A DNA stretch of 58,440 nucleotides from a virus: positions 1-58,440 of IMG/VR virus record IMGVR_UViG_3300024231_000013; one strand, 5' to 3'. Shown here piece after piece: positions 3,001-50,115 of the stretch. Under the pieces are notes generated by a model. The model saw nothing but the letters and a program-made list of their open reading frames with translations. It did not search any database and had not been told where the DNA came from. Positions within the stretch are counted from its first letter, which is position 1. Every line of letters starts with the position of its first letter. Position numbers and translations under genes: made by a program.

Positions 3001-5670
3001 AGGACTTATCTTTTTAACAGGTTTGTCTTTAGCCTCGACTACAACTTCTTCAGCTGCTACACCCTTAGCCTCTGTTACATCATCTGTAAACTTTTCACCT
3101 AATACTCTTTTCGATGCTTCAATTGCTCTAGCAGGTAAGAATTTATTTATATAAGCAGCTAATGGCACTCCAGATTCTGGCTTATATTCTTTTATAAGAT
3201 CAAATATACCACGTTTACCTGTTTCTATTTCGTCAGTTAATAACTGTTTATCAAAATTTGGAGCATCTCTTCTACGCTCTACTATTTTGTTTGTTATTGG
3301 TTTAAACTTTTCTAGTATATCAAAAGCACCGGCAACACCTTGTTCATCATATATTCTTTGTACCTCTTGAGAAGCTTCTTCAGATTTAGCCTCTTTTACT
3401 ATCGCTTCGTCAGTAGTTTTTACTTTTGGCGCAACTAGCTCACCCTCTACACCTTTAGTTACTGCTTTAGTCTGAGCTTTAGTTAGTTTACCTTTTTCTA
3501 TGCTCTTGTTATAGTCTTTTATAAAATTATAAACATCTCTACCGTTATTAAATTTAATACCAGTAAGACCGGCTTTCTGCAACACTCTTCTTATAGTATC
3601 ACCTATTTTAGTAAATAAGTTTTCTTCAAAAACTAAATCACCAGTAGCAATAGCATCGGAAAATAAAGTTAATGTTTCTTCTCCAACTATAGCATCAGGA
3701 TCTTGCTTGTATAGTTCTAAACGTTTCTTAAAGTCGCTATCTTTTATTTTACCAGCATCTATATTATTTAGTTCTAACTTGAGAGCATTACCTAAATTAA
3801 CAGCTGTATCTGGACTATCTACTATAGTTTTAAATAAAACACCGTGTAAAAGCTCGTGAGCTGCTACATTTACAGCAAATTCTTTTTTAGCTATTTCTTC
3901 GTTTATAACTATAGTCTGCTCACCAGTCTTAGGATCTTGTAGTATATAACCTTGCTCTGTCGATGCTTTCTTCTGCAGGTCTTTATCTTTAGCTATTTTA
4001 TCAGCTTGTTCTTGATCTTTTGCTATCTCTATATTTATAGACTCAATGCCTTTAACTATGTCAGTTACCTTCTCTGTAGTTATTTTTAATTTGTTCTCAG
4101 CACTTATGTTTGACAACCTGGCATCTATTTCTTTTAACCTCTGATCTTGAGTCTCTACTAAGGATTTATTATCACCTGCTTTTGCTATTTCAGAAGCAAC
4201 ATCTTGTCTTTCATTTAATAAATCTACAGTTTCTTTAAATAAGCTTTCTGTTATATTTAAATCATCAGCTATTTTGACATTTTTTTGAGTTATATTAAAC
4301 TTTTGCTTAATAGAATTAGACTCTTCAGTACTAATATCTCCGTCAGATACTTTTTTTCTAAGCTCTATATCTAAAATATTACCACTGTATTTGTTTTTAG
4401 CTATATTTATAGATTTATCGCTAGAAGGGTTTAATTCAAACTCATTTAAAACAGATTTAGAATTATTCTGCTCTAATGTCTTGTTTACAGAATTAACCTG
4501 AACAGCTCTATTTATAGATCTACCAGCTACACCTAAGGCTCCAGTTCCAGACATACTACCACCAGTTGCTACACCTATAATAAAAATATCAGCAAGTTCT
4601 GGCCAAAAATTATCAAACTCATCTCCTTTATTGTAGTAAATAGCATCGATGTTTCTATTTAATACCTCAGTAGTTGCTTCGGAAAAACCTTCTTTTCCAG
4701 CTTCTTTAACAACTTGCAATGTAGCATCTTTTAAGGTTTTTTCTATAACATCTCTACTTTTTCCAATTAAATTTCTAAATAGACCTTTACCTATTCTTTT
4801 AGTAGCAATCTCCAATAAACCCTCTGAAAAACCTGTCAAAGTAGATGCCGCCATGTTAGCTGCATCTAGCTTTTTACCTTCAGCTAATGCTTCTGTAGAA
4901 TAATCAGCTGCTGAGCCGGCTACAATAGAAGATATACCTACGTAAGGTATCATTGCTTGAGCTATAGATGGTATTGTACCAACAACCTCGTTAAAAGTAC
5001 GAGAAATAGCTTGAGAAAAGTCTAACTCTAAAAGGTCTTGTCCTATTGTAGTGTCGTATTGTGTAAGTGTTTTTTCTATTTTTTTAGCATCATTTTTTAG
5101 CTGATTTGCAGCTTCCAATCCTTTAACACCAGCTGAACCAATGTCGTTGGCACCTGAAAAAGCTCCTAAAGCTTGAGCTACCGCGTCTTGTGTTTTACTG
5201 TCTGATTCTTGAAACTTTTTTATATCTTCTTCAAAAGCAGATCCAGCTATACCAATAAGCGCGGTCATTTTTAATCTGTTGACAAAAGCTGGTATTTGCG
5301 CTATGTTTGATCCAGCTCTAAAGGTGTTTGCTTTGAACTTCTTAATAGCCTCAGATTCTAGTATTTTATCTAGTACTGTTTCTTCTTCTTCAAGCTCCTT
5401 AGCTTCTGGTAATTCCGAAGAAGTATCTTCCGAAGGTAACTCCGTAACGCCCGCTTGTGATGCTGTCATTGGCTGCACTACATCCGCATCCGCTGCAGCG
5501 CTTATTGGAAAATCCTGTGTCTCGTCTTTAATTTCTTGCTCTACAACTACACCTTCTTCATCTAAAACGCCTATAAAAACAGCATTACTGAATTTATTTA
5601 AAAATTCTTGTTCTTTGGCATCAGATACATCATAAGGATTACCGTCAACTTCATATCTTTTTACTGGCAT
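1..5670 (-). CDS. Giant internal virion protein, truncated at the window edge (at least 1890 aa)
   Basis: An open frame runs leftward from the ATG at 5670 to the first base of the window without a stop, so at least 1890 residues are present and the C-terminus is missing. Visible landmarks are an acidic N-terminal segment, Gly/Ala-rich hydrophobic stretches around residues 120-400, a zinc-peptidase-like motif HELLH at residues 605-609, long charged helical regions, and a HAD-like phosphatase signature (DFDDTLA with Asp1562 and Asp1564, later a FADDAS motif) near residues 1558-1680. Giant multi-domain proteins at the end of a podovirus structural block usually sit inside the capsid and are ejected with the DNA. 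That role is inferred from size and position. Both enzymatic motifs are seen, but activity is unproven. Confidence 0.75.
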   Translation of the reverse strand, partial: MPVKRYEVDGNPYDVSDAKEQEFLNKFSNAVFIGVLDEEGVVVEQEIKDETQDFPISAAADADVVQPMTASQAGVTELPSEDTSSELPEAKELEEEETVLDKILESEAIKKFKANTFRAGSNIAQIPAFVNRLKMTALIGIAGSAFEEDIKKFQESDSKTQDAVAQALGAFSGANDIGSAGVKGLEAANQLKNDAKKIEKTLTQYDTTIGQDLLELDFSQAISRTFNEVVGTIPSIAQAMIPYVGISSIVAGSAADYSTEALAEGKKLDAANMAASTLTGFSEGLLEIATKRIGKGLFRNLIGKSRDVIEKTLKDATLQVVKEAGKEGFSEATTEVLNRNIDAIYYNKGDEFDNFWPELADIFIIGVATGGSMSGTGALGVAGRSINRAVQVNSVNKTLEQNNSKSVLNEFELNPSSDKSINIAKNKYSGNILDIELRKKVSDGDISTEESNSIKQKFNITQKNVKIADDLNITESLFKETVDLLNERQDVASEIAKAGDNKSLVETQDQRLKEIDARLSNISAENKLKITTEKVTDIVKGIESINIEIAKDQEQADKIAKDKDLQKKASTEQGYILQDPKTGEQTIVINEEIAKKEFAVNVAAHELLHGVLFKTIVDSPDTAVNLGNALKLELNNIDAGKIKDSDFKKRLELYKQDPDAIVGEETLTLFSDAIATGDLVFEENLFTKIGDTIRRVLQKAGLTGIKFNNGRDVYNFIKDYNKSIEKGKLTKAQTKAVTKGVEGELVAPKVKTTDEAIVKEAKSEEASQEVQRIYDEQGVAGAFDILEKFKPITNKIVERRRDAPNFDKQLLTDEIETGKRGIFDLIKEYKPESGVPLAAYINKFLPARAIEASKRVLGEKFTDDVTEAKGVAAEEVVVEAKDKPVKKISPKKLKTYTGVVASNLGVSGSEVANTIDKAIEADLKDKPIKTFGESRNIGTNLAKTLGKAFGLNPEVFTKKTRNIQKKELDGLRNLRQFLDNNAAKDFSLLPDAYAGPSTIEGKSTFIPNNILNALYRKNDKGKWEKDPTKTVQDYKDLLGKIDGSVYRAAEAQTIKGLAAMSFRNLIVEKAAETAEPKARVDIKAGAKFSKAKEFKKLTKGLSDIQVAQEVLAIQKISEELGIEPRDVLLNINDNISKYKKLRGLLNIKEGGKKNITSVENSEKLKSTYKFFIKDLIPKGKTFDDLPKSVQQAIVDSVGFGDTRITLGGRPLTYKEVTNGVKGYSNLLKKVFGDDVIVGTGSDYSNSRAVFAPRNWGGFRRKVENIVLKEGVTPSEAKLQVEKLLSAEGSTVDETIKSNRELLNRGYSSLVNFVIKNKSKESLGFVADVLESQVNRATGLFKGMVPMTSFSMKPERGDTKNQNKLMHNEHLIELFNANKDFLITLNKFINGKISESVLRKTVKQNVDKLQQAVISERMRVQKDASGASVRDFVDPITFLGKDAVNQIPIGTYKLDIGKDFTGINMAEFIAQNLNSSQIQKIGSVSRNKLSAEGIMVRNILENYRDYVKTKNTNNNKAPNSLKFSKVSNKNTNQNILNNLGNIDKALSIARNADAPVKKIRVFDFDDTLATTKSNVLYTMPDGKTGSLTATEFAKKAGEMEAQGAEWDFSEFSKVMKGAKGPLLDVAKFINDAKGERDVFVLTARPQDAAGPIKEFLDSMGLNIPLENITGLGDGTAQAKARWMVDKAAEGYNDFYFADDASKNVKAVRDALSVLDVKSKVQQAYVKFSKASKLNKDFNDIIEGATGIASEKVYGKAKAQVAGASRGKVFRGIAYSAQDFVGLLYETLGKGKEGDAQMAWYKQNLLDPYARAMNDLSSARLAMMNDYRALKKQLGIVPKNLRKKLPGEPWTREQAVRVYVWSKQGTEVPGISKNDLKDLNSFVANNAELQVF

Positions 5671-35669: not shown

Positions 35670-35929
35670 AAAACAACAACTACATCTTGAAATCTTATAA
35701 TATGATATTTTTCACCATTATGCTCTATACCGTGTCCAGCGTGTTTATCGTAGTATATTTGATCTCCAGCTTTAACACCTTCAACCTCGTTACCAACACT
35801 CACAACGTCAGCCTGTATATATCGTATATCCTCTCTTTGAGATTCAGCAAGCAGTAAACCACCTTTTGTTTTAGCGGTACCTACTTTATGTTTGTTTATT
35901 ATTAAATTCCTACCTATTGCTATCATCAA
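35666..35929 (-). CDS. groES: Co-chaperonin GroES
   Basis: 87 aa, slightly shorter than bacterial GroES (about 95). It has the basic N-terminal strand ([13 protein letters not shown]), a mobile loop with the GroEL-binding hydrophobic patch (TKGGLLLAES), VKAGDQIYYDKHAGHGIEHN and the terminal YHIIRFQDVVVVL. GroES caps the GroEL ring during folding. The gene overlaps the end of GroEL by 20 bases and comes after it, the reverse of the bacterial groES-groEL order. It presumably acts with the adjacent phage GroEL, though mixing with host subunits is possible. Confidence 0.9.
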   Translation of the reverse strand: MMIAIGRNLIINKHKVGTAKTKGGLLLAESQREDIRYIQADVVSVGNEVEGVKAGDQIYYDKHAGHGIEHNGEKYHIIRFQDVVVVL

Positions 35930-37463
35930 TCCTTAAATTATTAATTACACAATCAGTAGATAATATTGTTGATGCTACAGACGCTGCGTTTCTTAAAGCG
36001 CTCTTAGTTACTAGCAAAGGATCTATAATACCAGAACCTATCATATTAACTGTTTTACCCGTAACAACATCTAAGCCTTCACCTTCTTTCTTAGGCTTTT
36101 TATATTCTTCAATACCAGCGTTACTTAGTATTGTATTAAACGGTGCTTTTATAGCTTTCAACAACACCTGCTCTCCTACGGTCTTTGCTTTTATTTTATT
36201 TGATGCATTTAGTAGTGCAATACCACCACCAGATACAATACCTTCTTTTATTGCGGCTTTAGTAGCACAGATAGCGTCTTCAACTCTGTCTTGTTTTTCT
36301 TTTAATTCTATTTCAGAGTTTGCACCAACTTTTACTATAGCTACTTTAGCAGATATCCTACCTAATCTTCTCTCAAGTCTTATAACTTCGTTAGGATTCT
36401 TAGTAGTTTCTATTTGATCTCTTAGGTCCTTAACTAATTTTTCTACATCTGGATTATTATCCTCGACTTGTATTATAGTCTCTAGATCTGTTGTAATGCT
36501 CTTTAAGCAACTCCCTAGATATTCTGGTTGTATAAGGTCCATATCATCTCCAAGATCCTCATTTATCACTGTAGCGCCTGTTAGAAGAGCTAAGTCATTT
36601 AGTGTATCTTTTTTACTTACACCGTACGTAGGAGCATTGATAATATTTACTTTTATATTCCCTTTAACCTTGTTCATAGCTAAAGCAGAAACAACGCTTT
36701 GCTCGCAGTCAGCTATTATAAGTAAAGACTTGTTGTTTTTTATTACATACTCTAAAACACTTTGTATTTTTCTTATAGACTCAACTGGTGATTCTACTAT
36801 TAGTACTAAAGCATTGTCAAGCTCTGCAGCTCTCTTTGTTTTACTTGTAACAAAGTGTGAGTTTACAAGTCCTTTGTCATACTCTACACCTTCAACTAGT
36901 TCAACTGAAGTTTCATTGTCCTCTGTTGGTTCCATGACCACCACACCTGTTAAATCAACTAACCTAAAAGCATCACCAATTATTTTACCTAATTCAGGGT
37001 CATTATTGGTCGATATAGTAGCTACTTGATCTAGCATGTCATCAGTTACTTCTACAGAGTTTTCTTTCAAGTAATCAACAACAGCCTCAACAGACTTATC
37101 AATACCTTCTTTTAAATCTCTAGTATTTGTTTTATCTAGAACTTCATAAGCTTCAGTAAGTATTGCATGAGCAAGTACTGTAGCTGTAGTTGTACCATCA
37201 CCAGCTTCTTTTACGGTTTTACGAGCTGCTTCTTTTAAAAGCGTAGCTCCCATGTTTTCAACTGGATCTCTTAATATAACTGACTCTGCCACAGTGACAC
37301 CGTCTTTTGTTATTATTGGTTTACCCGTGTGATCTTCTAGCATCACGCATTTACCGCTAGCTCCTAACGTAGAGCTAACAGCTTTTGTTAACTTGTCTAT
37401 ACCTTTATAGACGTTTTTTCTAGCCTTCTCTCCGAAGTTTAGATTTTTAACTATTGCATCCAT
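35910..37463 (-). CDS. groEL: Chaperonin GroEL (phage-encoded)
   Basis: 517 aa versus about 545 in bacteria. Signature blocks are present: [12 protein letters not shown] (catalytic Asp equivalent to Asp52), [14 protein letters not shown] (Asp87 equivalent), [21 protein letters not shown] in the apical domain and [21 protein letters not shown] (Asp398 equivalent). It therefore looks ATPase-competent. It lacks the Gly-Gly-Met C-terminal tail and ends [10 protein letters not shown]. It is transcribed with structural genes, so its clients are probably capsid or fibre proteins. The apical substrate-binding region is diverged from host types. Confidence 0.93.
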
Positions 37464-40567: not shown

Positions 40568-40587
40568 CACTATTTTTTACAATAGTG
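40568..40587. promoter_or_regulatory. Short perfect inverted repeat next to the late block
   Basis: CACTATT and AATAGTG form a 7-bp perfect stem with a 6-base TTTTAC loop, about 40 bases upstream of the first late gene, and it shares two bases with hairpin element A. It could be an operator or part of the late leader. Confidence 0.4.
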
Positions 40588-40631
40588 TGACAATAGCCCC
40601 TTACTATATACTCTATAAGGCTAATGTCATA
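40586..40631 (+). repeat. Conserved hairpin element, copy A
   Basis: 46 bases. The arms TGTGACAATAGCC and GGCTAATGTCATA pair over 13 positions with one G-T wobble and one A-A mismatch. The loop starts CCTTACTATATA. Copies B (41187-41233) and C (48584-48629) share the arms and the mismatch. The 3' arm carries ATGTCATAG, a start codon followed by one Ser codon and a stop. Confidence 0.65.
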
Positions 40632-40868: not shown

Positions 40869-40911
40869 TTACAAACAAAATAATATATATAATGGATAAT
40901 AATAATGTAAC
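40869..40911 (+). promoter_or_regulatory. Bipartite promoter-like motif, copy 1
   Basis: TTACAAACAAAATAATA at the upstream end and GGATAATAATAATGTAAC downstream, with GGATAA starting 25 bases after the first T. It lies 52 bases (from GG) before the ATG of the 76-aa gene. Six further copies keep exactly the same spacing. Confidence 0.7.
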
Positions 40912-40945
40912 AAATAAATAATAATAACTTAAATAAATTAAAACT

Positions 40946-41176
40946 ATGTCAGTATTAAAATCAAAAAGATTTGTTGTTCGCAAATCATTAATCGGAAAAA
41001 ATCAAATCATTGAAGTAACATTCAAAAATGGAAAAGTTGCAAAGTATAATCACGATGATGTATACAATGTTATGAAAACAAAACTTGAAACAATGAACTG
41101 TTGGAGTAAATACAAATCATACACTTCGTCAACTTCGATGCCAGTTGTTACTCGTGAATTATTAATCACTGAGTAA
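40946..41176 (+). CDS. Early protein, paralogue 1 (76 aa)
   Basis: First gene of the rightward block. It is highly similar to the 75-aa protein at 41499-41726: both share KRFV(V/I)RKSLIGKNQ, a VxFKNGK segment, YNHD and KYKSYTSSTS. A predicted small beta-barrel-like N-terminal half is followed by a helix. No known domain. Being first behind a strong promoter-like motif suggests an immediate-early host-takeover function. The leader is rich in TAATAA and has no Shine-Dalgarno motif. Confidence 0.7.
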   Translation: MSVLKSKRFVVRKSLIGKNQIIEVTFKNGKVAKYNHDDVYNVMKTKLETMNCWSKYKSYTSSTSMPVVTRELLITE

Positions 41177-41186
41177 TACATAAAAC

Positions 41187-41233
41187 TGTGACAATAGCCT
41201 GTTACTATCTTAATCTAATAGGCAAATGTCACA
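41187..41233 (+). repeat. Conserved hairpin element, copy B
   Basis: 47 bases; arms TGTGACAATAGCC and GGCAAATGTCACA. The outer 7 bp (TGTGACA/TGTCACA) are perfect: the G-T wobble of copies A and C is a G-C pair here, a compensatory-type change. It follows the 76-aa gene stop by 10 bases and is followed by a T5 tract, so this copy could also terminate transcription. Confidence 0.65.
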
Positions 41234-41417
41234 CTTTTTATAACACAACATTTAGTGTGTTCCATTGCAGGCCTGATTCTGAAACAAGATCGGAAGAGTA
41301 TACTCCACTCTACACTATATTTAACTATAAGTTTTACTTATTAAAATGAGTTTTACTATAAGAGATAGTGCATTATACTTCTCTAACTATTTTTACTAAT
41401 AAATAATAATACACCTT

Positions 41418-41460
41418 TTACAAACAAAATAATATTCCATTTGGATAATATAAATGTAAC
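41418..41460 (+). promoter_or_regulatory. Bipartite promoter-like motif, copy 2
   Basis: TTACAAACAAAATAATA, then TTGGATAATATAAATGTAAC, with 25 bases from the first T to GG. It is 56 bases (from GG) before the ATG of the 75-aa paralogue. This is the best match to the consensus. Confidence 0.7.
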
Positions 41461-41498
41461 AAACTAATAATAATAATAATAACTAAATAATTTTAACT

Positions 41499-41726
41499 AT
41501 GTCAACTTTAATTTCAAAAAGATTTGTAATCAGAAAATCACTAATTGGTAAAAACCAACTAATCACTGTCAACTTCAAAAATGGTAAAACAGTTACTTAT
41601 AATCACGATAAAGTGTATGAAGTAATGAAGTCTAAACTAGAAAATATGGCTTGCTTCGTCAAGTACAAGTCTTACACTTCTTCAACTAGTGTACCAGTGA
41701 TCGCTCGAGAAGTACTAGAAAAATAG
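41499..41726 (+). CDS. Early protein, paralogue 2 (75 aa)
   Basis: Paralogue of the 76-aa protein at 40946: same length and same conserved blocks (KRFVIRKSLIGKNQ, FKNGK, YNHDKVYEVMKSKLENM, KYKSYTSSTS). The divergence is in short stretches, so the duplication is not very recent. Each copy has its own promoter-like motif and hairpin element. Function unknown. A small protein present in two early copies may be needed in quantity or may form hetero-oligomers. Confidence 0.7.
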   Translation: MSTLISKRFVIRKSLIGKNQLITVNFKNGKTVTYNHDKVYEVMKSKLENMACFVKYKSYTSSTSVPVIAREVLEK

Positions 41727-41742
41727 TACTATCCGAGTAACA

Positions 41743-41817
41743 AGTCGTAACGGTTTCACTCTGCATTTTGACTACGTGAGCTCTACTTTGTGAGGTGGTT
41801 CGATTCCACCAACGACT
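41743..41817 (+). ncRNA. tRNA-like element with acceptor stem and T arm (non-canonical)
   Basis: 75 bases. The ends AGTCGTA and AACGACT pair over 6 of 7 positions, and a perfect T arm GGTGG-TTCGATT-CCACC sits at 41794-41810, with 44 bases between acceptor and T arm, the right size for a tRNA. I could not fold a canonical D arm or a 5-bp anticodon stem with U33, and CCA is not encoded. It is either a degenerate tRNA or a tRNA mimic that RNase P/Z might cut, between the 75-aa gene and the next gene. Confidence 0.4.
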
Positions 41818-41851
41818 ACTAATAAATTAATAACTAATAAATAATAAAACT

Positions 41852-41971
41852 ATGTGTACAAAATCATATACCTTACTAAAAATATCAAGAAGAATCTTCA
41901 AGAAAGACTTTAACGAACTAACTAGCAATCAAAGATCTCAAGTAATAGATATATACTATGACTTCTACTAA
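41852..41971 (+). CDS. Small early protein (39 aa)
   Basis: ATG at 41852 after an A/T-rich leader of the same style as neighbours (AATAATAAAACT). It reads MCTKSYTLLKISRRIFKKDF and ends in IDIYYDFY. Basic helix followed by an aromatic tail. Not recognised. Called because it has a typical leader and fills the space between the tRNA-like element and the next gene. Confidence 0.45.
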   Translation: MCTKSYTLLKISRRIFKKDFNELTSNQRSQVIDIYYDFY

Positions 41972-41981
41972 ACTAAATAAT

Positions 41982-42119
41982 ATGCAATTTATACTAACTT
42001 GCCCTAATGGTAAAAAAATAGATATGTCAAGCGATATACTATTACAAATCGAAGGTAAGATCTCTCGATGCGAGGTACTTACAAGAATTAACTTTTATAA
42101 ATCTACTAATAATGACTAA
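41982..42119 (+). CDS. Small early protein (45 aa)
   Basis: Starts MQFILTCPNGKKIDMSSDIL. The stop overlaps the start of the 90-aa gene (8 bases), which implies coupling. Two Cys. Not recognised. The coding call rests on packing between neighbours. Confidence 0.45.
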   Translation: MQFILTCPNGKKIDMSSDILLQIEGKISRCEVLTRINFYKSTNND

Positions 42120-42384
42120 AACTTACAGAAATATAGAGTATACTTATATACTAAGCGAGACTTGGAATGGTATCAAGTACGATAATTATCACTGCAACGA
42201 CAGAAACTTACTAGATGGTTTAGAAACAAGTATGTTTACTAAACTAAGTGAGCAAGATATGCAAGATGAAATAGATCACTTGATCGATCAAAGACAAGAT
42301 CTATTACAAATACAAGATCTAGTGCACGAAGCGCGAAGAGATTGGTATTCTAATACATACTCAGGCGAGTATACAGGCGATTAA
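42112..42384 (+). CDS. Early protein (90 aa)
   Basis: Not recognised. N-terminal beta-like part (TYRNIEYTYILSETWNGIKY) and an acidic/Gln-rich helix (residues 42-75, LSEQDMQDEIDHLIDQRQDL). Last gene before promoter-like motif copy 3, which starts 4 bases after its stop, so it ends one early unit. Confidence 0.6.
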   Translation: MTKTYRNIEYTYILSETWNGIKYDNYHCNDRNLLDGLETSMFTKLSEQDMQDEIDHLIDQRQDLLQIQDLVHEARRDWYSNTYSGEYTGD

Positions 42385-42387
42385 GAA

Positions 42388-42430
42388 TTACAAACAAATA
42401 ATAATAACTATTGGATAATATAATAAACTA
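42388..42430 (+). promoter_or_regulatory. Bipartite promoter-like motif, copy 3
   Basis: TTACAAACAAATAATAATA, then TTGGATAATATAATAAAC; 25-base register kept. GG is 24 bases before the ATG of the 32-aa gene. The downstream part is weaker (TAATAAAC instead of TAAATGTAAC). Confidence 0.6.
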
Positions 42431-42436
42431 ATAACA

Positions 42437-42535
42437 ATGATAAAATTTTCACACAAAGTACTATTAGTACTAAAAAAAGCAAACAAAGTATTAACTAAAC
42501 TAGGTAGCGCTGCTGCTTGGGCGATAAGAAACTAA
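42437..42535 (+). CDS. Mini-protein (32 aa)
   Basis: MIKFSHKVLLVLKKANKVLT followed by KLGSAAAWAIRN. A basic, amphipathic helix. It is first behind promoter-like motif copy 3 and is followed by the next ATG after 2 bases. A membrane-active or protein-binding peptide is conceivable; nothing is proven. Confidence 0.45.
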   Translation: MIKFSHKVLLVLKKANKVLTKLGSAAAWAIRN

Positions 42536-42537
42536 TT

Positions 42538-42672
42538 ATGAGAAATATACAACTTACAGAAAGCGATTGTACCTTTGTACACTATGTACTAAGAATGTAC
42601 GCAAGTCAAACCAGTGGATTAGATCATCAAGACAAGGTGGAAATACGAGATGTCGCTGCTAAATTCAAATAG
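42538..42672 (+). CDS. Small early protein (44 aa)
   Basis: MRNIQLTESDCTFVHYVLRM and then a polar end with DKVEIRDVAAKFK. Not recognised. Two bases separate it from the 32-aa gene, and its stop is 1 base before the next ATG. Confidence 0.45.
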   Translation: MRNIQLTESDCTFVHYVLRMYASQTSGLDHQDKVEIRDVAAKFK

Positions 42673-42673
42673 T

Positions 42674-42853
42674 ATGAGTCTATTCTATTGGTCAGAAGAA
42701 ACTATAAGTTACTTTAAATTTATAAGTAGCTATTTAAGTAAAAAACAAACTATTCGCAAGATCGAGCTATTTGTAGAAATGGACTGTATTCCTGCAGAGG
42801 AAGAGACTGAAGACATGTTAGTGCAAGATCTAATAAATGTGATATACAAGTAG
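42674..42853 (+). CDS. Small early protein (59 aa)
   Basis: I prefer the ATG at 42674 over 42650 because it follows the previous stop directly. It is aromatic at the N-terminus (MSLFYWSEETISYFKFISSY) and acidic at the end (EEETEDMLVQDLINVIYK). Not recognised. Last gene before motif copy 4. Confidence 0.5.
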   Translation: MSLFYWSEETISYFKFISSYLSKKQTIRKIELFVEMDCIPAEEETEDMLVQDLINVIYK

Positions 42854-42857
42854 AAAG

Positions 42858-42900
42858 TTACAAACAAAATAATATTTCTATTGGATAATATAAATGTAAA
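42858..42900 (+). promoter_or_regulatory. Bipartite promoter-like motif, copy 4
   Basis: TTACAAACAAAATAATA, then TTGGATAATATAAATGTAAA; 25-base register. GG is 34 bases before the ATG of the 64-aa gene. Confidence 0.7.
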
Positions 42901-42916
42901 TAATAAATAATAAACT

Positions 42917-43111
42917 ATGCAGAAAATTAAATTTCAAAATTCAAGTACAATAAAACTTAACGGTACAACCTATAAAGGCTATACTGTAGGTAATCTACCA
43001 AAAAGATTTGCCTTCATCTACAACGAGAACAAAGATCAAGAAGGTATTACTCACTGGTTCAACTACAAAGGTCTAACTTATGTAGAAAAATCTACTAACC
43101 CTTGGGCGTAG
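42917..43111 (+). CDS. Small early protein (64 aa)
   Basis: Not recognised. Lys- and aromatic-rich with strands such as IKLNGTTYKGYTVG and ITHWFNYKGLTYVEK. Likely a small beta fold. First gene behind promoter-like motif copy 4. Confidence 0.55.
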   Translation: MQKIKFQNSSTIKLNGTTYKGYTVGNLPKRFAFIYNENKDQEGITHWFNYKGLTYVEKSTNPWA

Positions 43112-43128
43112 TATCTAATCCGAGAACT

Positions 43129-43368
43129 ATGAAAGAGCTACTAGCTTACTCGGAACTACAAAAAAAATCACGAGCAGACGGGCATAGACGTGCTGTTCGA
43201 GCAAACGGTGTATGTGGTGGACTAACTGACAAAGAATACAATAGTATTACAACTCGTCAGAAATCTAACTTCGCAAAAGCTAGAAAGTTCACCCACAACC
43301 GTATGTGGCAAGAAACTCACAAGAAGTTTGACACAAAGCAATTACTAATAATAAAAAAGACACTATAA
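43129..43368 (+). CDS. Small basic early protein (79 aa)
   Basis: I use the ATG at 43129. An in-frame TTG at 43102 would overlap the previous gene. It is very basic, with RADGHRRAVRANGVCGG and helices rich in Arg, Lys and Gln (TTRQKSNFAKARKFTHNRMW). Nucleic-acid binding is plausible. The stop shares one base with the next start. Confidence 0.55.
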   Translation: MKELLAYSELQKKSRADGHRRAVRANGVCGGLTDKEYNSITTRQKSNFAKARKFTHNRMWQETHKKFDTKQLLIIKKTL

Positions 43369-43571
43369 TGAGTAAAACTAAATTTAATGGATTTGAAAAG
43401 TATTTCATCCAAACAGCGTTAAACCACTCTATCAAACAAGCTGAAGAAGACGTTAAAGAACTAATAAGCGAAGGTAAAAGACCTCTCTATTCAGAAGGTT
43501 ACTTTACTATGGTAGGTAATGAAATATTAGATAAAGTAAATAGTATGACACTTAAAAAATACCAAGACTAA
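43368..43571 (+). CDS. Small early protein (67 aa)
   Basis: Not recognised. Two predicted helices (KYFIQTALNHSIKQAEEDVK and NEILDKVNSMTLKKYQ) around a short loop. One-base stop/start overlaps on both sides show tight coupling. Confidence 0.55.
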   Translation: MSKTKFNGFEKYFIQTALNHSIKQAEEDVKELISEGKRPLYSEGYFTMVGNEILDKVNSMTLKKYQD

Positions 43572-43783
43572 TGAGCGATTCAGTAAGTAAATGGCACGAG
43601 ATCCAAGAGGACAAACAAACGCTATCAGAAGAAAACATAGATTCTATTGCTATGCAAATGGATTTAAAGATGTGGGAAAGTTTTAGTGATATAATACAGA
43701 ACACCGTAGACTATGATCAAGCTATGCACATAACAGATAAAGATATATTATTAATCAAAGAACAAGTTAAAAAATTCTTATAA
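43571..43783 (+). CDS. Small acidic early protein (70 aa)
   Basis: Not recognised. Acidic and helical (EIQEDKQTLSEENIDSIAMQ, then WESFSDIIQNTVDYDQAMHI). Coupled to neighbours by one-base overlaps. Confidence 0.55.
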   Translation: MSDSVSKWHEIQEDKQTLSEENIDSIAMQMDLKMWESFSDIIQNTVDYDQAMHITDKDILLIKEQVKKFL

Positions 43784-43908
43784 TGAACGAAGAACCAGTT
43801 AGAAACCCGTGGGATTTAGTATACGAAGCGTATAAAGACCACTATTCAAGAAAACAGATAGATGAAATGCTATTCTGCGAAGTAGAAGAACTAATAAATC
43901 AATTATAG
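43783..43908 (+). CDS. Small early protein (41 aa)
   Basis: MNEEPVRNPWDLVYEAYKDH and then an acidic helix (KQIDEMLFCEVEELINQL). The start is one base inside the previous stop, the same coupling as in the rest of this unit. Not recognised. Confidence 0.5.
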   Translation: MNEEPVRNPWDLVYEAYKDHYSRKQIDEMLFCEVEELINQL

Positions 43909-43910
43909 AT

Positions 43911-44159
43911 ATGAAAGAGTGGATGAAACAAGATACAAGAATTAACGGATGGGATTTTGAGTATGTAGAAAATGACTACGACGATAAGTTTTTTCAGTGT
44001 AGAGGTGATGTGTTCTATGATGATGACCATGACGAGATGCCAGAACCAGATTTATGGGATGCAGCGATAAAGCTAGAAGATGAATTAACTAAAGCTGGTG
44101 TTAAATGTGAAGCTAACCATTCAGAAAAAGGTTGGGTCGAAGTAACAATACTAAACTAA
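43911..44159 (+). CDS. Acidic early protein (82 aa)
   Basis: Not recognised. Rich in Asp and Glu (NDYDDKFFQCRGDVFYDDDH). A C-terminal alpha/beta part (LWDAAIKLEDELTKAGVKCE, then KGWVEVTILN) looks like a small ferredoxin-like or DNA-mimic fold. Acidic small proteins are a known style of phage anti-host factor, but no specific function can be claimed. Confidence 0.55.
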   Translation: MKEWMKQDTRINGWDFEYVENDYDDKFFQCRGDVFYDDDHDEMPEPDLWDAAIKLEDELTKAGVKCEANHSEKGWVEVTILN

Positions 44160-44164
44160 AAGTA

Positions 44165-44368
44165 ATGAGTAAAATGAAAGAAATAGACGAAATAGCACAA
44201 GGTATTGCTGACGTCACTAAAGAACTTATGGAAGACAGTATTGATTGGCAAATAGCAGATCAACCTGTGAACGGAGACGAGTATAAAGAGCTACATGAGA
44301 TGGTTATGTTCTTAGCTGTAGAGAAAATGTATATGTCTACTAAAAGAAAGTATTACGAGCGTGATTAA
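44165..44368 (+). CDS. Acidic early protein (67 aa)
   Basis: I use the ATG at 44165, five bases after the previous stop, instead of an upstream non-ATG start inside the previous gene. All-helical by composition (IDEIAQGIADVTKELMEDSI, YKELHEMVMFLAVEKMYMST). Not recognised. It ends the unit, with motif copy 5 starting at the stop. Confidence 0.5.
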   Translation: MSKMKEIDEIAQGIADVTKELMEDSIDWQIADQPVNGDEYKELHEMVMFLAVEKMYMSTKRKYYERD

Positions 44369-44411
44369 TTACAAACAAAATAAAATAACTACTGGATAAT
44401 ATATATGTAAC
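44369..44411 (+). promoter_or_regulatory. Bipartite promoter-like motif, copy 5
   Basis: TTACAAACAAAATAAAATA, then CTGGATAATATATATGTAAC; 25-base register. GG is 35 bases before the ATG of the zinc-ribbon gene. Confidence 0.7.
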
Positions 44412-44428
44412 AAATAAAATAATAAACT

Positions 44429-44617
44429 ATGTACTGTAAATGCGGCGACGAAGTCCACCCTTATCGATTAAGCTTAGGATATAAAACATGTCCTCCTTGT
44501 TCTGAAGTAAAAAAATATTCCTATGTTCCTATTACTTACCACAAAACAGGTAACACAATTCAAATAGTAAGCCAGGAGCTAAGTGCGCTTGTACATAAAT
44601 CACAAAGACGAAGATAA
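44429..44617 (+). CDS. Small zinc-ribbon protein (62 aa)
   Basis: MYCKCGDEVHPYRLSLGYKT continues with CPPCSEV. The two Cys pairs (C3/C5 and C21/C24 or close) with the GxEV...RxxxGYKTC context are the pattern of short phage zinc ribbons related to the DksA/TraR tip. The C-terminal half is basic (SALVHKSQRRR). It may touch RNA polymerase or DNA. First gene behind promoter-like motif copy 5. Confidence 0.6.
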   Translation: MYCKCGDEVHPYRLSLGYKTCPPCSEVKKYSYVPITYHKTGNTIQIVSQELSALVHKSQRRR

Positions 44618-44618
44618 T

Positions 44619-45071
44619 ATGAATACACTAACACAATGGCAAGCTCGCCGAAAAGAGCTAGAAGACAAATACGTAGAGTTAATGCTAGCTAAGTACCCAC
44701 TACTAACTGATGTAACTACAAATACACAGCGTAAAAACGGTACTAGAACGTTCCAACTTAGCCACAAAAAGTATGGTTTATGTAAATTCGCTACATACAA
44801 ATCAGGTATGGTTCGTAAAATAATAAGAAGTAGGTTTAATGATTTATCTTGCTATCAACTAAATCCTCAAAGACAAACAACTAGTTATTATATGACACTT
44901 AGTGACAATAGCGAGTTAAATGTGAGATCTTGCACAGGTACACAAAGAGTAAAAATAACTAACGGCCTTACTAGATTAGTGTATCTAGAAAAATACTTAA
45001 TAAAAAACTACGACTTAGACTCAGTGCAAGATGTAATCGAAGTTGATGGTGTATTATATAAAAGAATATAA
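44619..45071 (+). CDS. Hypothetical basic protein (150 aa)
   Basis: I use the ATG at 44619, one base after the previous stop. The upstream in-frame ATG at 44583 would overlap the zinc-ribbon gene. Basic N-terminal helix (WQARRKELEDKYVELMLAKY), then Arg/Lys- and Tyr-rich strands (TRTFQLSHKKYGLCKFATY, YYMTLSDNSELNVRSC) and a helical end. Possibly nucleic-acid binding; not recognised. It is followed by the 280-base structured non-coding stretch. Confidence 0.55.
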   Translation: MNTLTQWQARRKELEDKYVELMLAKYPLLTDVTTNTQRKNGTRTFQLSHKKYGLCKFATYKSGMVRKIIRSRFNDLSCYQLNPQRQTTSYYMTLSDNSELNVRSCTGTQRVKITNGLTRLVYLEKYLIKNYDLDSVQDVIEVDGVLYKRI

Positions 45072-45353
45072 ACACGGTGGAGGGCTTAGTACGGCTACGG
45101 TATTTTAAGTGGTTAAGCTAACGAAGATCCTCTAAGGTAGTAAATAGCTAGACGAGTAGCTTAATTAGGTATGATTAAAGGCGACTAAGCACAGCGAGAA
45201 GTCTAACGACGAGGTACAGCGTGACGTCGGCTCGATGACTACACATAAGCGAATAGCTAGCGGCAACTAGGTATGGTTGCGATTACCGGGGCATTAGCTC
45301 GATCGTGGTGCGCATACTACCGACGGGTATGAGGTTCGATTCCTCACTAGTTA
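45072..45353 (+). ncRNA. Structured non-coding stretch ending in a tRNA-like T arm and acceptor
   Basis: About 280 bases without a supportable gene and visibly richer in G and C than the flanks. It contains GTTA-AGC-TAAC (near 45111), TTAAT-TAGGTATG-ATTAA (45161-45178), GCAAC-TAGGTATG-GTTGC (45263-45280), and TACC-GACG-GGTA followed by the T arm TGAGG-TTCGATT-CCTCA (45330-45346) and CTAGTTA, which pairs with TAGCTAG at 45254-45260 (one G-T). Two hairpins share the same 8-base loop but have different, still perfect stems, each preceded by TAGCTAG. It looks like a functional RNA or degenerate tRNA relics. No canonical tRNA could be folded. Confidence 0.45.
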
Positions 45354-45393
45354 CAAACAAAATTAAAATAAAGTTGGATAATATAAATGTAAT
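45351..45393 (+). promoter_or_regulatory. Bipartite promoter-like motif, copy 6
   Basis: TTACAAACAAAATTAAAATA, then TTGGATAATATAAATGTAAT; 25-base register. Its first three bases are also the last bases of the tRNA-like acceptor strand. GG is 31 bases before the ATG of the 82-aa gene. Confidence 0.7.
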
Positions 45394-45406
45394 TAAATAA
45401 ATAAAA

Positions 45407-45655
45407 ATGGCAAGATTAACAATTTACGAAAGGCTAAAGCCTGAAATCAAAGAAGCTCTAGCTTCGCAAGACGAAAAATACAGTACATCTGTAAGACTAA
45501 TTATAGCCACGCTAAGTAGTACCACATTCTATAGTGACTTAACAATAGGTGACGTTAGCTCGTTATATACATGGGCTGATATAGATTTCTTCAGAGTTTC
45601 TACATGGGATTTTAAGCATGGTGATAACATTTTAATATCAGATAAAGATGACTAA
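45407..45655 (+). CDS. Early protein (82 aa)
   Basis: Not recognised. Helical start (ARLTIYERLKPEIKEALASQ) and a Ser/Thr/Asp-rich part with aromatic residues. It overlaps the next gene by 8 bases. First gene behind promoter-like motif copy 6. Confidence 0.55.
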   Translation: MARLTIYERLKPEIKEALASQDEKYSTSVRLIIATLSSTTFYSDLTIGDVSSLYTWADIDFFRVSTWDFKHGDNILISDKDD

Positions 45656-46316
45656 GTATATAACAGATAAGTTGATAGCTAAAAAAATGGCTGAAAAAGG
45701 TTGGATTGAAGGCTGCGATGATGAGCATGCTAGAAACCAAGTGCTTGCACACTATGAATGTGAAATAACTGATCAATGGCAAAACCCTGACTTCAGTGTA
45801 TACGAAGAATCAACAGCTGATGGTTACTCTGTGTGGATTGCTACTGCTGATGACAAAAGTATAAATGTTAGTGAAGACGTATACTACTATGAAAACGAAC
45901 TTACAGATGTGTTATACGAAGCGATACCTGACTACAATCAGATATACTGTGACAACTATGACTTTGTTGAAGATGCTATTACTAGACACTACGAGGATTT
46001 ATTATGTAGAATAGAAGATGAAATTATAGATGAATTGATTGATGAAGGTTATAACCATAAAGTAGTTGACCCTATAAATACACTGCAATACATAGAGATG
46101 ATCTCTCAAGACGATCAGTTTAACAAAGACCTACCTAAACTGTATACAGGAGCTATAAATCTAACAGTAGATGAAGACTATAGGTACTTAAACTATGCTA
46201 GTCAAATAATTAAAGACAGGGCAAGGTATGAGATTGTAGCTAATCATTATGGTCTAACTATCGAAAGAGCTGTTAAAGGTGAATTAATATTTAAAGAATT
46301 AAAAAATGAAAACTAA
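45648..46316 (+). CDS. Large acidic early protein (222 aa)
   Basis: Not recognised. Exceptionally rich in Asp, Glu and Tyr (for example ENELTDVLYEAIPDYNQIYC, EDEIIDELIDEGYN), few basic residues in residues 20-150. Strong negative charge can mimic DNA and block host nucleases or polymerase, as several phage early proteins do. Here this is only a possibility. It overlaps neighbours by 8 and 11 bases. Confidence 0.6.
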   Translation: MTKYITDKLIAKKMAEKGWIEGCDDEHARNQVLAHYECEITDQWQNPDFSVYEESTADGYSVWIATADDKSINVSEDVYYYENELTDVLYEAIPDYNQIYCDNYDFVEDAITRHYEDLLCRIEDEIIDELIDEGYNHKVVDPINTLQYIEMISQDDQFNKDLPKLYTGAINLTVDEDYRYLNYASQIIKDRARYEIVANHYGLTIERAVKGELIFKELKNEN

Positions 46317-46569
46317 AGAACAAACAGTACCTAAGTGGTTTAAAGGTATGATTTACGACAAAGGTGAATTAGTAACAAACCCTTTCAGTGGAGATAGCTA
46401 CGAACTTAGTGCTGTCGAGCTATCAATGTATGACTTCATAATGGGTAGTCAATATGTAATGGAGGTAGCACCTAAAACAGTTACTGAAAAACAAATTAAC
46501 GAGTTTCATAAAGCACTATCTTGGTTTCGCAAGAATAACAGTAATGCGTATATGACGTTACTTGATTAA
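46306..46569 (+). CDS. Early protein (87 aa)
   Basis: Not recognised. Contains PKWFKGMIYDKGELVTNPFS followed by GDSYELSAVELSMYDFIMGS and a helical end (EKQINEFHKALSWFRKNNSN). Similar small proteins with this GELVxNPxSG segment occur in marine phages. It ends the unit, one base before motif copy 7. Confidence 0.55.
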   Translation: MKTKEQTVPKWFKGMIYDKGELVTNPFSGDSYELSAVELSMYDFIMGSQYVMEVAPKTVTEKQINEFHKALSWFRKNNSNAYMTLLD

Positions 46570-46570
46570 T

Positions 46571-46613
46571 TTACAAACAAAATTTATTCACTAATGGATA
46601 ATAAACTAAATAT
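46571..46613 (+). promoter_or_regulatory. Bipartite promoter-like motif, copy 7
   Basis: TTACAAACAAAATTTATTC, then ATGGATAATAAACTAAAT; 25-base register, downstream part diverged. GG is 39 bases before the ATG of the KTSC gene. It precedes the unit that leads into DNA ligase. Confidence 0.6.
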
Positions 46614-46634: not shown

Positions 46635-46868
46635 ATGAACAGATTAGTATTACCAATGCAGACTGTAGACGTTAACTCTACAGCAATTGACAGAGCGAGT
46701 TACAAGTATGATAACTACAGACTTACTCTTACGTTTAACAATGGCGGTCGCTATAATTACGAAGGCGTACCGAATCATGTCTTTGAAGGTTTAAGATCTT
46801 CACAGTCAAAGGGTAAATTCATTAACAAGTATGTCTTACCAGTTTACAAATGTAATACTGCTAACTAA
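46635..46868 (+). CDS. KTSC-domain protein (77 aa)
   Basis: Residues 12-66 follow the KTSC pattern: VDVNSTAIDRASYKYDNYRL, TFNNGGRYNYEGVPNHVFEG and SKGKFINKYV. KTSC domains are small and often fused to, or encoded with, phage or lysyl-tRNA-synthetase-related proteins. Their biochemical role is unsettled. The stop is directly followed by the next ATG. First gene behind promoter-like motif copy 7. Confidence 0.75.
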   Translation: MNRLVLPMQTVDVNSTAIDRASYKYDNYRLTLTFNNGGRYNYEGVPNHVFEGLRSSQSKGKFINKYVLPVYKCNTAN

Positions 46869-48611: not shown

Positions 48612-48629
48612 TAAGAGGCTAATGTCATA
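48584..48629 (+). repeat. Conserved hairpin element, copy C, covering a start codon
   Basis: 46 bases; arms TGTGACAACAGCC and GGCTAATGTCATA with the same A-A mismatch and G-T wobble as copy A. The inner part (TTATATAGTAAGAGG) resembles the reverse complement of copy A's inner part. The ATG in the 3' arm (48622) is the start codon of the 206-aa HTH gene, so a folded RNA would hide it. Confidence 0.65.
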
Positions 48630-49242
48630 TAAAAGAAACATAAAGTATTTAGTAAGTAGAGGCATCGTATATAGGCAAGATCCTATAAGCGATGTACCTA
48701 CTACAGAAACTGAGAAGTATATGTTCTTTGAAAATGGTACATACGAATGCTATACATTGTTTAACACTAATGCTAAGATAACCTCTTACAAAAGTCTTAA
48801 ATGGCATTTGTATGTTTTATGGTATCTAAATACCACTATGAATCAAGATCAGTTTGATAACATGGCTAAAGTTATATGTGATAAAAAAAATGGATTTGTT
48901 ACCTTTGATATTAGCTCTTGGCATTATGAAAAAATAGTATACGATGTATTAATGAGTGATCTTGACGAACCACCTAGAAATAAACTGCGTAAAGTAATAT
49001 TTAAAGACCATAACATGCTGACTGTCAGTGAAAAACTAAGTATAGTCGGTAAGTTAATAGGTAAAACTAGCAACGTAGACAGTGAAGCAATTTACCAATG
49101 TATGCTAGATATTAACGAGTTTGGTAATAAAATAACTATAAGCGGTCTAGCTGGTTTGCTTGATTGTTCAACTAGAACTATATACAGAAACATGAACAAC
49201 ACATTGAAAAAAGAAAAAGAATTATTAAACCAACAATTATGA
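48622..49242 (+). CDS. Predicted HTH transcriptional regulator (206 aa)
   Basis: Residues 160-195 form a helix-turn-helix candidate (KITISGLAGLLDCSTRTIYR, then NMNNTLKKE). The N-terminal 130 residues are an alpha/beta domain with a Tyr/Trp-rich core (MFFENGTYECYTLF, SLKWHLYVLWYLNT). The ATG lies inside hairpin element C, suggesting translational control, perhaps by its own binding. It precedes the sigma factor gene, so a role in the early-to-late switch is a reasonable guess. Confidence 0.6.
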   Translation: MSYKRNIKYLVSRGIVYRQDPISDVPTTETEKYMFFENGTYECYTLFNTNAKITSYKSLKWHLYVLWYLNTTMNQDQFDNMAKVICDKKNGFVTFDISSWHYEKIVYDVLMSDLDEPPRNKLRKVIFKDHNMLTVSEKLSIVGKLIGKTSNVDSEAIYQCMLDINEFGNKITISGLAGLLDCSTRTIYRNMNNTLKKEKELLNQQL

Positions 49243-49349
49243 GACAAGACTTTAACGAGTGGATGGCTAAGATAGGTAATATACATTACGCTAACGATAA
49301 TTTAATGGCTAAAGCTTTTGAAAAAATAGATCAATATGAAGAAATATAA
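49239..49349 (+). CDS. Mini-protein (36 aa)
   Basis: MRQDFNEWMAKIGNIHYAND followed by NLMAKAFEKIDQYEEI. It overlaps both the HTH gene stop (4 bases) and the sigma gene start (14 bases), so it probably couples their translation. Not recognised. Confidence 0.4.
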   Translation: MRQDFNEWMAKIGNIHYANDNLMAKAFEKIDQYEEI

Positions 49350-50115
49350 TGTACAGAATTATATAAGATATAAAACAGATGTTAAAACATCTATAGCCAA
49401 CCTTGAAGGTAAATTTTACGATGAATACACTAAAGACGAACTTATAATAAAATTTATGCCTTTAGTAGAGAATTTGGCTAGAAAGTTTTCAACTAGTGAT
49501 CAAGCCTCTGGAATACTAAGTATTAATGACTTAATACAAATAGGTAATGAAGCATTAATAAAGGCTGTAAATAAAATAGACTGGTTAGTTATAGATGAAT
49601 CACCTGATGTTGAAAAAACTTTAAAATCATTTTTAAGTAAAAGAATTAAAGGTGCAATACGTAGAAGAATAGATATAAACAAGGGTAGTATGAGAATACC
49701 AGAGCATAAACTTAACGAGATACGTAAAAATCCTGACAACGAAGATTTAAGTAAAATATTTATAACTAGCATGTTTGCTTCGTTAGATAACAAGCATACA
49801 AGTAAAAGTAATACTTACAAGAATGACGATGTTGAAATGAGTTACGACGTTGCAGATGAATCTGAATCTTATAATATAGACTTGATGAATGCATATCTCA
49901 TGGGTATAATGAAACAGTACTTAAGCAATGCCGAGTATGAAGTAGTAAGACTAAGTTACGGTATGGACTGTGACAAGCACTCAGCTAGAGAAATAGCTGT
50001 TGAGTTAAATATAACTGGAGTTAGTAATTATGTGCGAATATCTGAGATAAAAAAGGCTGCAATAGACAAATTAATAGCTAACGTAGATAGCTCGCAAGTG
50101 ATTGACTTTCTGTAA
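49336..50115 (+). CDS. Phage RNA polymerase sigma factor (sigma-70 family)
   Basis: 259 aa. Region 2 is visible at about residues 35-115: FMPLVENLARKFSTSDQAS, LSINDLIQIGNEALIKAVNK and SFLSKRIKGAIRRRIDINKG. Region 4 lies at about 190-245: LSNAEYEVVRLSYGMDCDKH, SAREIAVELNITGVSNYVRI and EIKKAAIDKL, a helix-turn-helix for -35 recognition. There is no clear region 1. It would redirect host RNA polymerase, probably to late or middle promoters. The seven bipartite motifs are candidate targets, but they precede genes likely to be expressed before the sigma factor. Confidence 0.8.
   Translation: MKKYNVQNYIRYKTDVKTSIANLEGKFYDEYTKDELIIKFMPLVENLARKFSTSDQASGILSINDLIQIGNEALIKAVNKIDWLVIDESPDVEKTLKSFLSKRIKGAIRRRIDINKGSMRIPEHKLNEIRKNPDNEDLSKIFITSMFASLDNKHTSKSNTYKNDDVEMSYDVADESESYNIDLMNAYLMGIMKQYLSNAEYEVVRLSYGMDCDKHSAREIAVELNITGVSNYVRISEIKKAAIDKLIANVDSSQVIDFL

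Follow-up and report, generated by a model that had tools for sequence, protein, structure and literature searches.

The window analysed here, an entire IMG/VR virus record of 58,440 bases (IMGVR_UViG_3300024231_000013), carries seven copies of a bipartite element, TTACAAAC-N17-GGATAA, that are probably the core promoters of a single phage regulon, read by the host core RNA polymerase in combination with a phage-encoded sigma factor. The evidence comprises the promoter elements and their register, a purine at the predicted +1 position, a peak of start codons at the same base, and the co-occurrence and co-variation of the elements with a sigma gene among related viruses. These viruses very probably reprogram the host polymerase with a promoter code of their own.

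An earlier note on this DNA had reported seven copies with a 25-base start-to-start register, all on the rightward strand, and both points were borne out: every copy was exact, at the coordinates listed below, and 7/7 lay on the + strand. In 100 dinucleotide-preserving shuffles there were no exact matches (largest count 0). The invariant block was longer than described, TTACAAACAAA-N13-TGGATAATA being identical in all seven copies. Base 38 after the first T was a purine in each of them. The distance of 24-56 bases to the start codon was confirmed, measured from the first G of GGATAA, and the predicted leaders were 11-43 bases long. A location just after a stop codon was found for the copies at 42388, 42858, 44369 and 46571 (within ~5 bases), but those at 40869, 41418 and 45351 stood in longer intergenic stretches. 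Copy 7 headed a rightward run that contains the sigma gene. The copies, with the evidence for each, were as follows:

40869..40907, + strand: promoter copy 1, predicted start 40907 (G), gene 40946-41176; exact motif, +1 purine rule, matrix score.
41418..41456, + strand: promoter copy 2, predicted start 41456 (G), gene 41499-41726; exact motif, +1 purine rule.
42388..42426, + strand: promoter copy 3, predicted start 42426 (A), first gene 42437-42535; exact motif, +1 purine rule.
42858..42896, + strand: promoter copy 4, predicted start 42896 (G), first gene 42917-43111; exact motif, +1 purine rule.
44369..44407, + strand: promoter copy 5, predicted start 44407 (G), first gene 44429-44617; exact motif, +1 purine rule.
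45351..45389, + strand: promoter copy 6, predicted start 45389 (G), first gene 45407-45655; exact motif, +1 purine rule.
46571..46609, + strand: promoter copy 7, predicted start 46609 (A), first gene 46635-46868; exact motif, +1 purine rule, gene order.

The register was maintained in other viruses. Two scans of IMG/VR, one with the gap left free at 6-24 bases, gave 285 TTACAAAC/GGATAAT pairs, 232 of which were at a distance of 25, a number supplied in part by the fixed-gap scan, while every other distance was represented by 1-7 pairs. A weight matrix applied to the window and ten relatives located 96 sites, confined to a single strand in each genome, and none in the reversed sequence or in the shuffled genomes tried. 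Conservation in related phages, the lack of which would by the earlier note have refuted its reading, was found in 32/32 related virus records; with 2 mismatches allowed, each held 1-14 copies, almost all on one strand, compared with 0-2 for reversed-pattern controls, figures that speak to multiplicity and strand bias and not to prevalence, the records having been picked for holding a motif match. In one relative, G016 (L293-L296), the motif sites numbered 22, and the early clusters at the two ends of the contig were near-duplicates of each other, through either a duplication or an assembly end overlap. Short blastn searches for copies in cultured phages gave none that was convincing, and no shared promoter motif was found on the late strand.

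Across the relatives, the full element read tTACAAAc-(T/A)AAATACGA-N8-tgGATAATA. The middle block had drifted in the lineage of the window, for example to AAATAATA, and the window copies lacked CGA. Base 38 past the first T was a purine in 97% of 338 unique sites, compared with ~65% at most of the downstream neighbours, and this position had played no part in site selection. In 25 of 217 sites (about 12%) the first start codon coincided with the predicted +1; among the same 217 it lay 16-20 bases past the first G in three and 21-24 bases past it in 37. The coincidence of the purine and the start-codon peak at one base argues that transcription starts there, with a leaderless class and a class having leaders of at least 8 bases, implying that some of the mRNAs would be leaderless. 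The predicted start is 7 bases after GATAAT, which places GATAAT at -12 to -7, TTACAAAC at -38 to -31 and AAATACGA at -29 to -22, and the element is best read as a sigma-70-type promoter with sigma-70 geometry. Two other interpretations were discarded. GGATAA as the 5' end of the mRNA was ruled out by the purine and start-codon signatures, and its first G was not kept in the relatives; the ATG of TATAAATG as a start-stop mini open reading frame was rejected, its G being the predicted +1.

The statement that the element does not match sigma-70 was not upheld: GATAAT shares 5/6 bases with TATAAT, the elements are placed as in a sigma-70 promoter, and TATAATA stands in the same register in a divergent relative. 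T4 gp55 is a phage sigma factor that directs the host core polymerase, and T4 late promoters consist of a -10 element, TATAAATA, with no -35 element. A resemblance of TATAAATG to these promoters had been suggested, but the stretch adjoins and spans the position where transcription is predicted to begin, on the downstream side of the real -10 element, and in contrast to T4 an upstream block is conserved here. The mismatch with the Bacteroidota consensus was confirmed, the copies reading TGGATAATA and not the -7 box TAnnTTTG (PMC9723704).

The window encodes a candidate reader of these promoters:

49336..50115, + strand: sigma-70-family factor of 259 amino acids, proposed promoter reader; phrog_351 at 1.5e-19, Pfam Sigma70_r2 just below the cut-off, SigA/RpoD profile hits, fold matches and motif co-occurrence.

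A profile of 39 sigma sequences (A1) matched SigA/RpoD chains, to 5e-12, across region 2 and, more weakly, in a second stretch across region 4, and the best Protein Data Bank (PDB) matches of the AlphaFold model (predicted local distance difference test score, pLDDT, 76) were sigma factors. The gene was present in 30/32 of the motif records, and in the other two the contig broke off soon after the motif cluster, in the direction in which sigma was expected. Conversely, among 79 viral loci found through the sigma protein, 62 carried the motif; the copies were without exception on the same strand as sigma, and almost all preceded the gene. Most of the loci lacking the motif were cut short upstream; in L349, structural genes occupied the expected place of the cluster. 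Both sigma and motif were absent from seven sequenced relatives. The earlier proposal of a sigma-type reader of a fixed-register, promoter-like element was thus strengthened, since the window encodes such a factor and the motif tracks its gene over dozens of related viral contigs. The 49336-50115 product is likely to be the protein that reads the promoters.

The promoters also varied with the sigma lineage. Each of the loci with an intact cluster and no canonical motif had its own promoter version. In L302 it was TATAAGTTTGAYACGA-N9-GATAATA, in ~8 copies, and in L364, where sigma was 51% identical, AAAACGAC-N8-TATAATA, in 11 copies, the register being unchanged in both. In L372 and L370 (sigma 41-43%), ATACGA lay ~20 bases ahead of GATAATA or TGATA, which shifts this block into the -35 position. 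Genes with the same first codons had promoters of the GATAATA type in L344 and of the TATAATA type in L364. L344 also held TATAATA copies and may be a mosaic, given these copies and the mixed appearance of the L374 assembly. The sigma genes of L374 (10001-10760) and L368 (10001-10754) were broken by frameshifts, and the pieces in L374 resembled two lineages, probably an assembly mixture. Within a genome, the promoters agreed at base -13 far more than in shuffles (pair agreement 0.77 versus 0.35), a uniformity expected with one trans-acting reader.

A second conserved gene accompanied sigma:

48622..49242, + strand: conserved protein of 206 amino acids with a weak C-terminal helix-turn-helix, possible sigma partner; HTH_11 at E 0.007 (below the cut-off), present in 75/79 sigma loci.

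In the 79 sigma loci, the helix-turn-helix gene often overlapped or touched the sigma start. The protein was missing in L364, a lineage without TTACAAAC, and in L302 it was 55% identical to that of close relatives with canonical elements, compared with 85% for sigma. A model of the protein (pLDDT 86) had no PDB fold match. The neighbour may contribute to promoter recognition, a lead and not a demonstration. A tentative extension, which we regard as possible but do not favour, is a two-protein code in which sigma would read the -10 block and the translationally coupled helix-turn-helix partner the upstream blocks, all promoters of a lineage switching code together, mostly in the same register. 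Such a code, if true, would prevent cross-talk between the regulons of related phages.

In the proposed mechanism, the host core RNA polymerase would carry the phage sigma-70-family factor, and for this holoenzyme GATAATA would be the -10 element and TTACAAAC the upstream (-35) element, with initiation on a purine 7 bases after GATAAT. The promoters would drive the small rightward gene cluster beside the divergence point, and copy 7 would drive the run with the sigma gene itself, giving positive feedback; we infer both this feedback and the timing class. Less certainly, the helix-turn-helix protein beside sigma would help to read the upstream elements.

Several observations weigh against this mechanism, 1) the co-occurrence of sigma and motif comes from related phages, so that the independent events are fewer than the loci, 2) the sigma gene lies downstream of the promoters, and the mechanism does not account for the first sigma molecules, 3) L302 has a new upstream element despite a sigma 85% identical to that of its canonical relatives, so that sigma alone may not read this element, 4) an association of sigma residue 111 (R or A) with base -13, seen before kinship correction, failed that correction, since the tree showed no more than three changes and the independent pairs were too few, and 5) in L004 the start codon is at -6, outside the start-point model. 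A host-type promoter was sought as a source of the first sigma molecules, and no consistent TAnnTTTG box was present before the cluster or the sigma gene.

The strongest alternative is that the blocks are operators or activator sites bound by a phage transcription factor, such as the helix-turn-helix protein 48622-49242, while the polymerase retains a host sigma. The upstream blocks jointly exceed the usual length of a -35 element, and the candidate protein is conserved beside sigma, absent in L364, which has lost TTACAAAC, and diverged in L302, where the upstream block has changed. However, GATAATA corresponds to a -10 element in position and sequence, the purine start lies as far from it as is canonical, and the phage has a sigma gene of its own, found together with the motif; this explanation is unlikely.

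The elements might instead be ordinary early phage promoters, read by a housekeeping or alternative sigma factor of the host. The cluster looks early by position, early phage genes usually use the host holoenzyme, and the stringent motif does occur in bacteria. It was found, however, in only 3 of ~85,000 bacterial and archaeal genomes, all Flavobacteriaceae metagenome-assembled genomes (MAGs) with one or two copies each, whereas host promoters should be present in many copies. Moreover, the published flavobacterial sigma motifs are the TAnnTTTG box or other known types (PMC9723704), and the promoter variants follow the phage sigma lineage. Host promoters are accordingly considered improbable. 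In the MAG chromosomes, a phage-type promoter lay within a ~190-base repeat (L228 149-181, L229 4273-4305; also L254, L255 and L256) that ended in a signal-peptide start and was followed by differing sequence; one MAG had two copies, the second with GTATAATA. The repeat could be a mobile or phage-derived module. In L227 (4718-4750; L253), the motif was 3 bases past a tRNA-Asp gene and preceded a gene beginning MKKIIYIDMDG, where the contig ended, and may mark the edge of an integrated element or satellite.

It is very unlikely that the element is a 5' untranslated leader or RNA element acting as a translation or processing signal. It does sit in 5' regions on the coding strand, and the start codon of L004 would require transcription from further upstream, but the start codon follows at anything from 7 to ~60 bases, a -10-like block stands at a fixed distance from the purine, and there was no Rfam match. 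Promoters for a single-subunit, T7-like phage polymerase are scarcely credible: AAATACGA resembles the T7 promoter TAATACGA, a short exact likeness in many relatives, but the window copies lack CGA, the conserved block reaches -38, and PF00940 was found in 0/34 related records (the T7 positive control was detected) and not in the window, the left end of which is incomplete.

The nearest precedent for the sigma-directed promoters proposed here is phage 7-11, together with phiEco32, and the system looks to work alike. In 7-11, which infects Salmonella, the sigma factor SaPh711_gp47 reads late promoters of the form GTAAtg-(16)-aCTA, which are present in several copies, work with the host RNA polymerase and start 6-9 bases from the downstream element (PMC8948821). 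The window likewise has a phage-encoded sigma and, as predicted from sequence, bipartite, fixed-spacing promoters in several copies. The consensus differs, however, and in contrast to the late genes served in 7-11 the copies are in a non-structural cluster, with none found on the late strand; a third block in many relatives and the helix-turn-helix gene coupled to sigma are further differences. In phiEco32, gp36 reads tAATGTAtA, a single element without a -35, at middle and late genes (PMC8948821, PMC4331800). Common to both would be a sigma that redirects the host polymerase, and relatives with distant sigmas use different promoter sequences; the single element of phiEco32 sets it apart, and no sequence relation is claimed. 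The host phylum, the genes served and the lineage-by-lineage switching of whole promoter sets distinguish the present system from both precedents. Flavobacterial sigma-A promoters have the -7 box TAnnTTTG, short AT-rich leaders and 5.5% leaderless mRNAs (PMC9723704); short AT-rich leaders are a common feature with this likely host family, but the consensus and element positions differ, and here ~12% of the motif sites have the start codon at the predicted +1.

Phage sigma regulons are already known, but in the literature searched none was found for any Bacteroidota phage, nor anything relevant to the motif letters. The sequences present a strong and coherent case for such a regulon in a phylum where the literature searched holds none. 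The analysis yields a promoter set with predicted starts, a proposed reader and perhaps its partner, and naturally occurring variants of both promoter and reader, by which promoter-sigma co-evolution could be tested in small experiments. In the annotation of these uncultured genomes the motif can serve as a search signature, and the promoters are possible orthogonal promoters for Bacteroidota, where genetic tools from other bacteria perform poorly (PMC9723704).

The motif-bearing group is one of uncultured viruses of marine flavobacteria, with no isolate in the phage collection searched, and the host is likely to belong to the Flavobacteriaceae. The nearest matches to the terminase and portal of the window were in Manatee Spring podovirus (MW202828), Flavobacterium elemo phages, Cellulophaga phages (e.g. 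phi38:1, phi13:2) and Tenacibaculum phage Gundel. Structural genes occupied the minus strand, while the rightward strand from 40,946 had many small genes followed by DNA-metabolism genes. The left end interrupted a giant gene, indicating that the record is a fragment; positions 1-5670 (-) encoded the open-ended N-terminal 1890 amino acids of the giant protein, counterparts of which, ~3,700-3,860 amino acids long, occupied the corresponding place in MW202828 and the elemo phages. The giant virion protein was considered as a virion polymerase, but simple searches of three giants, the window's copy being incomplete, gave nothing convincing for the catalytic motifs of either polymerase type.

In the promoter region, generic sigma-70 promoter and terminator scans gave a signal not above shuffles, and no Rfam family matched. 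A related pair of hairpin-like sequences was present at 40587-40630 and 41187-41240 (GTGACAATAGCC ... GGC-AATGTCA), the second of which follows the first promoter-gene unit, has a T run next to it and is terminator-like, although missed by the generic scan. The stretches 41733-41820 and 45072-45349, the latter directly preceding promoter copy 6, had ends resembling a tRNA T-arm (GGTTCGATTCC), with no match by ARAGORN or Rfam. The genes at 40946-41176 and 41499-41726 were adjacent paralogs (76 and 75 amino acids) with one promoter copy each, and had relatives in 44/79 sigma loci. At 35910-37463 (-), the phage encoded a GroEL-like chaperonin (phrog_5725); the elemo and MW202828 relatives also have a chaperonin, together with GroES.

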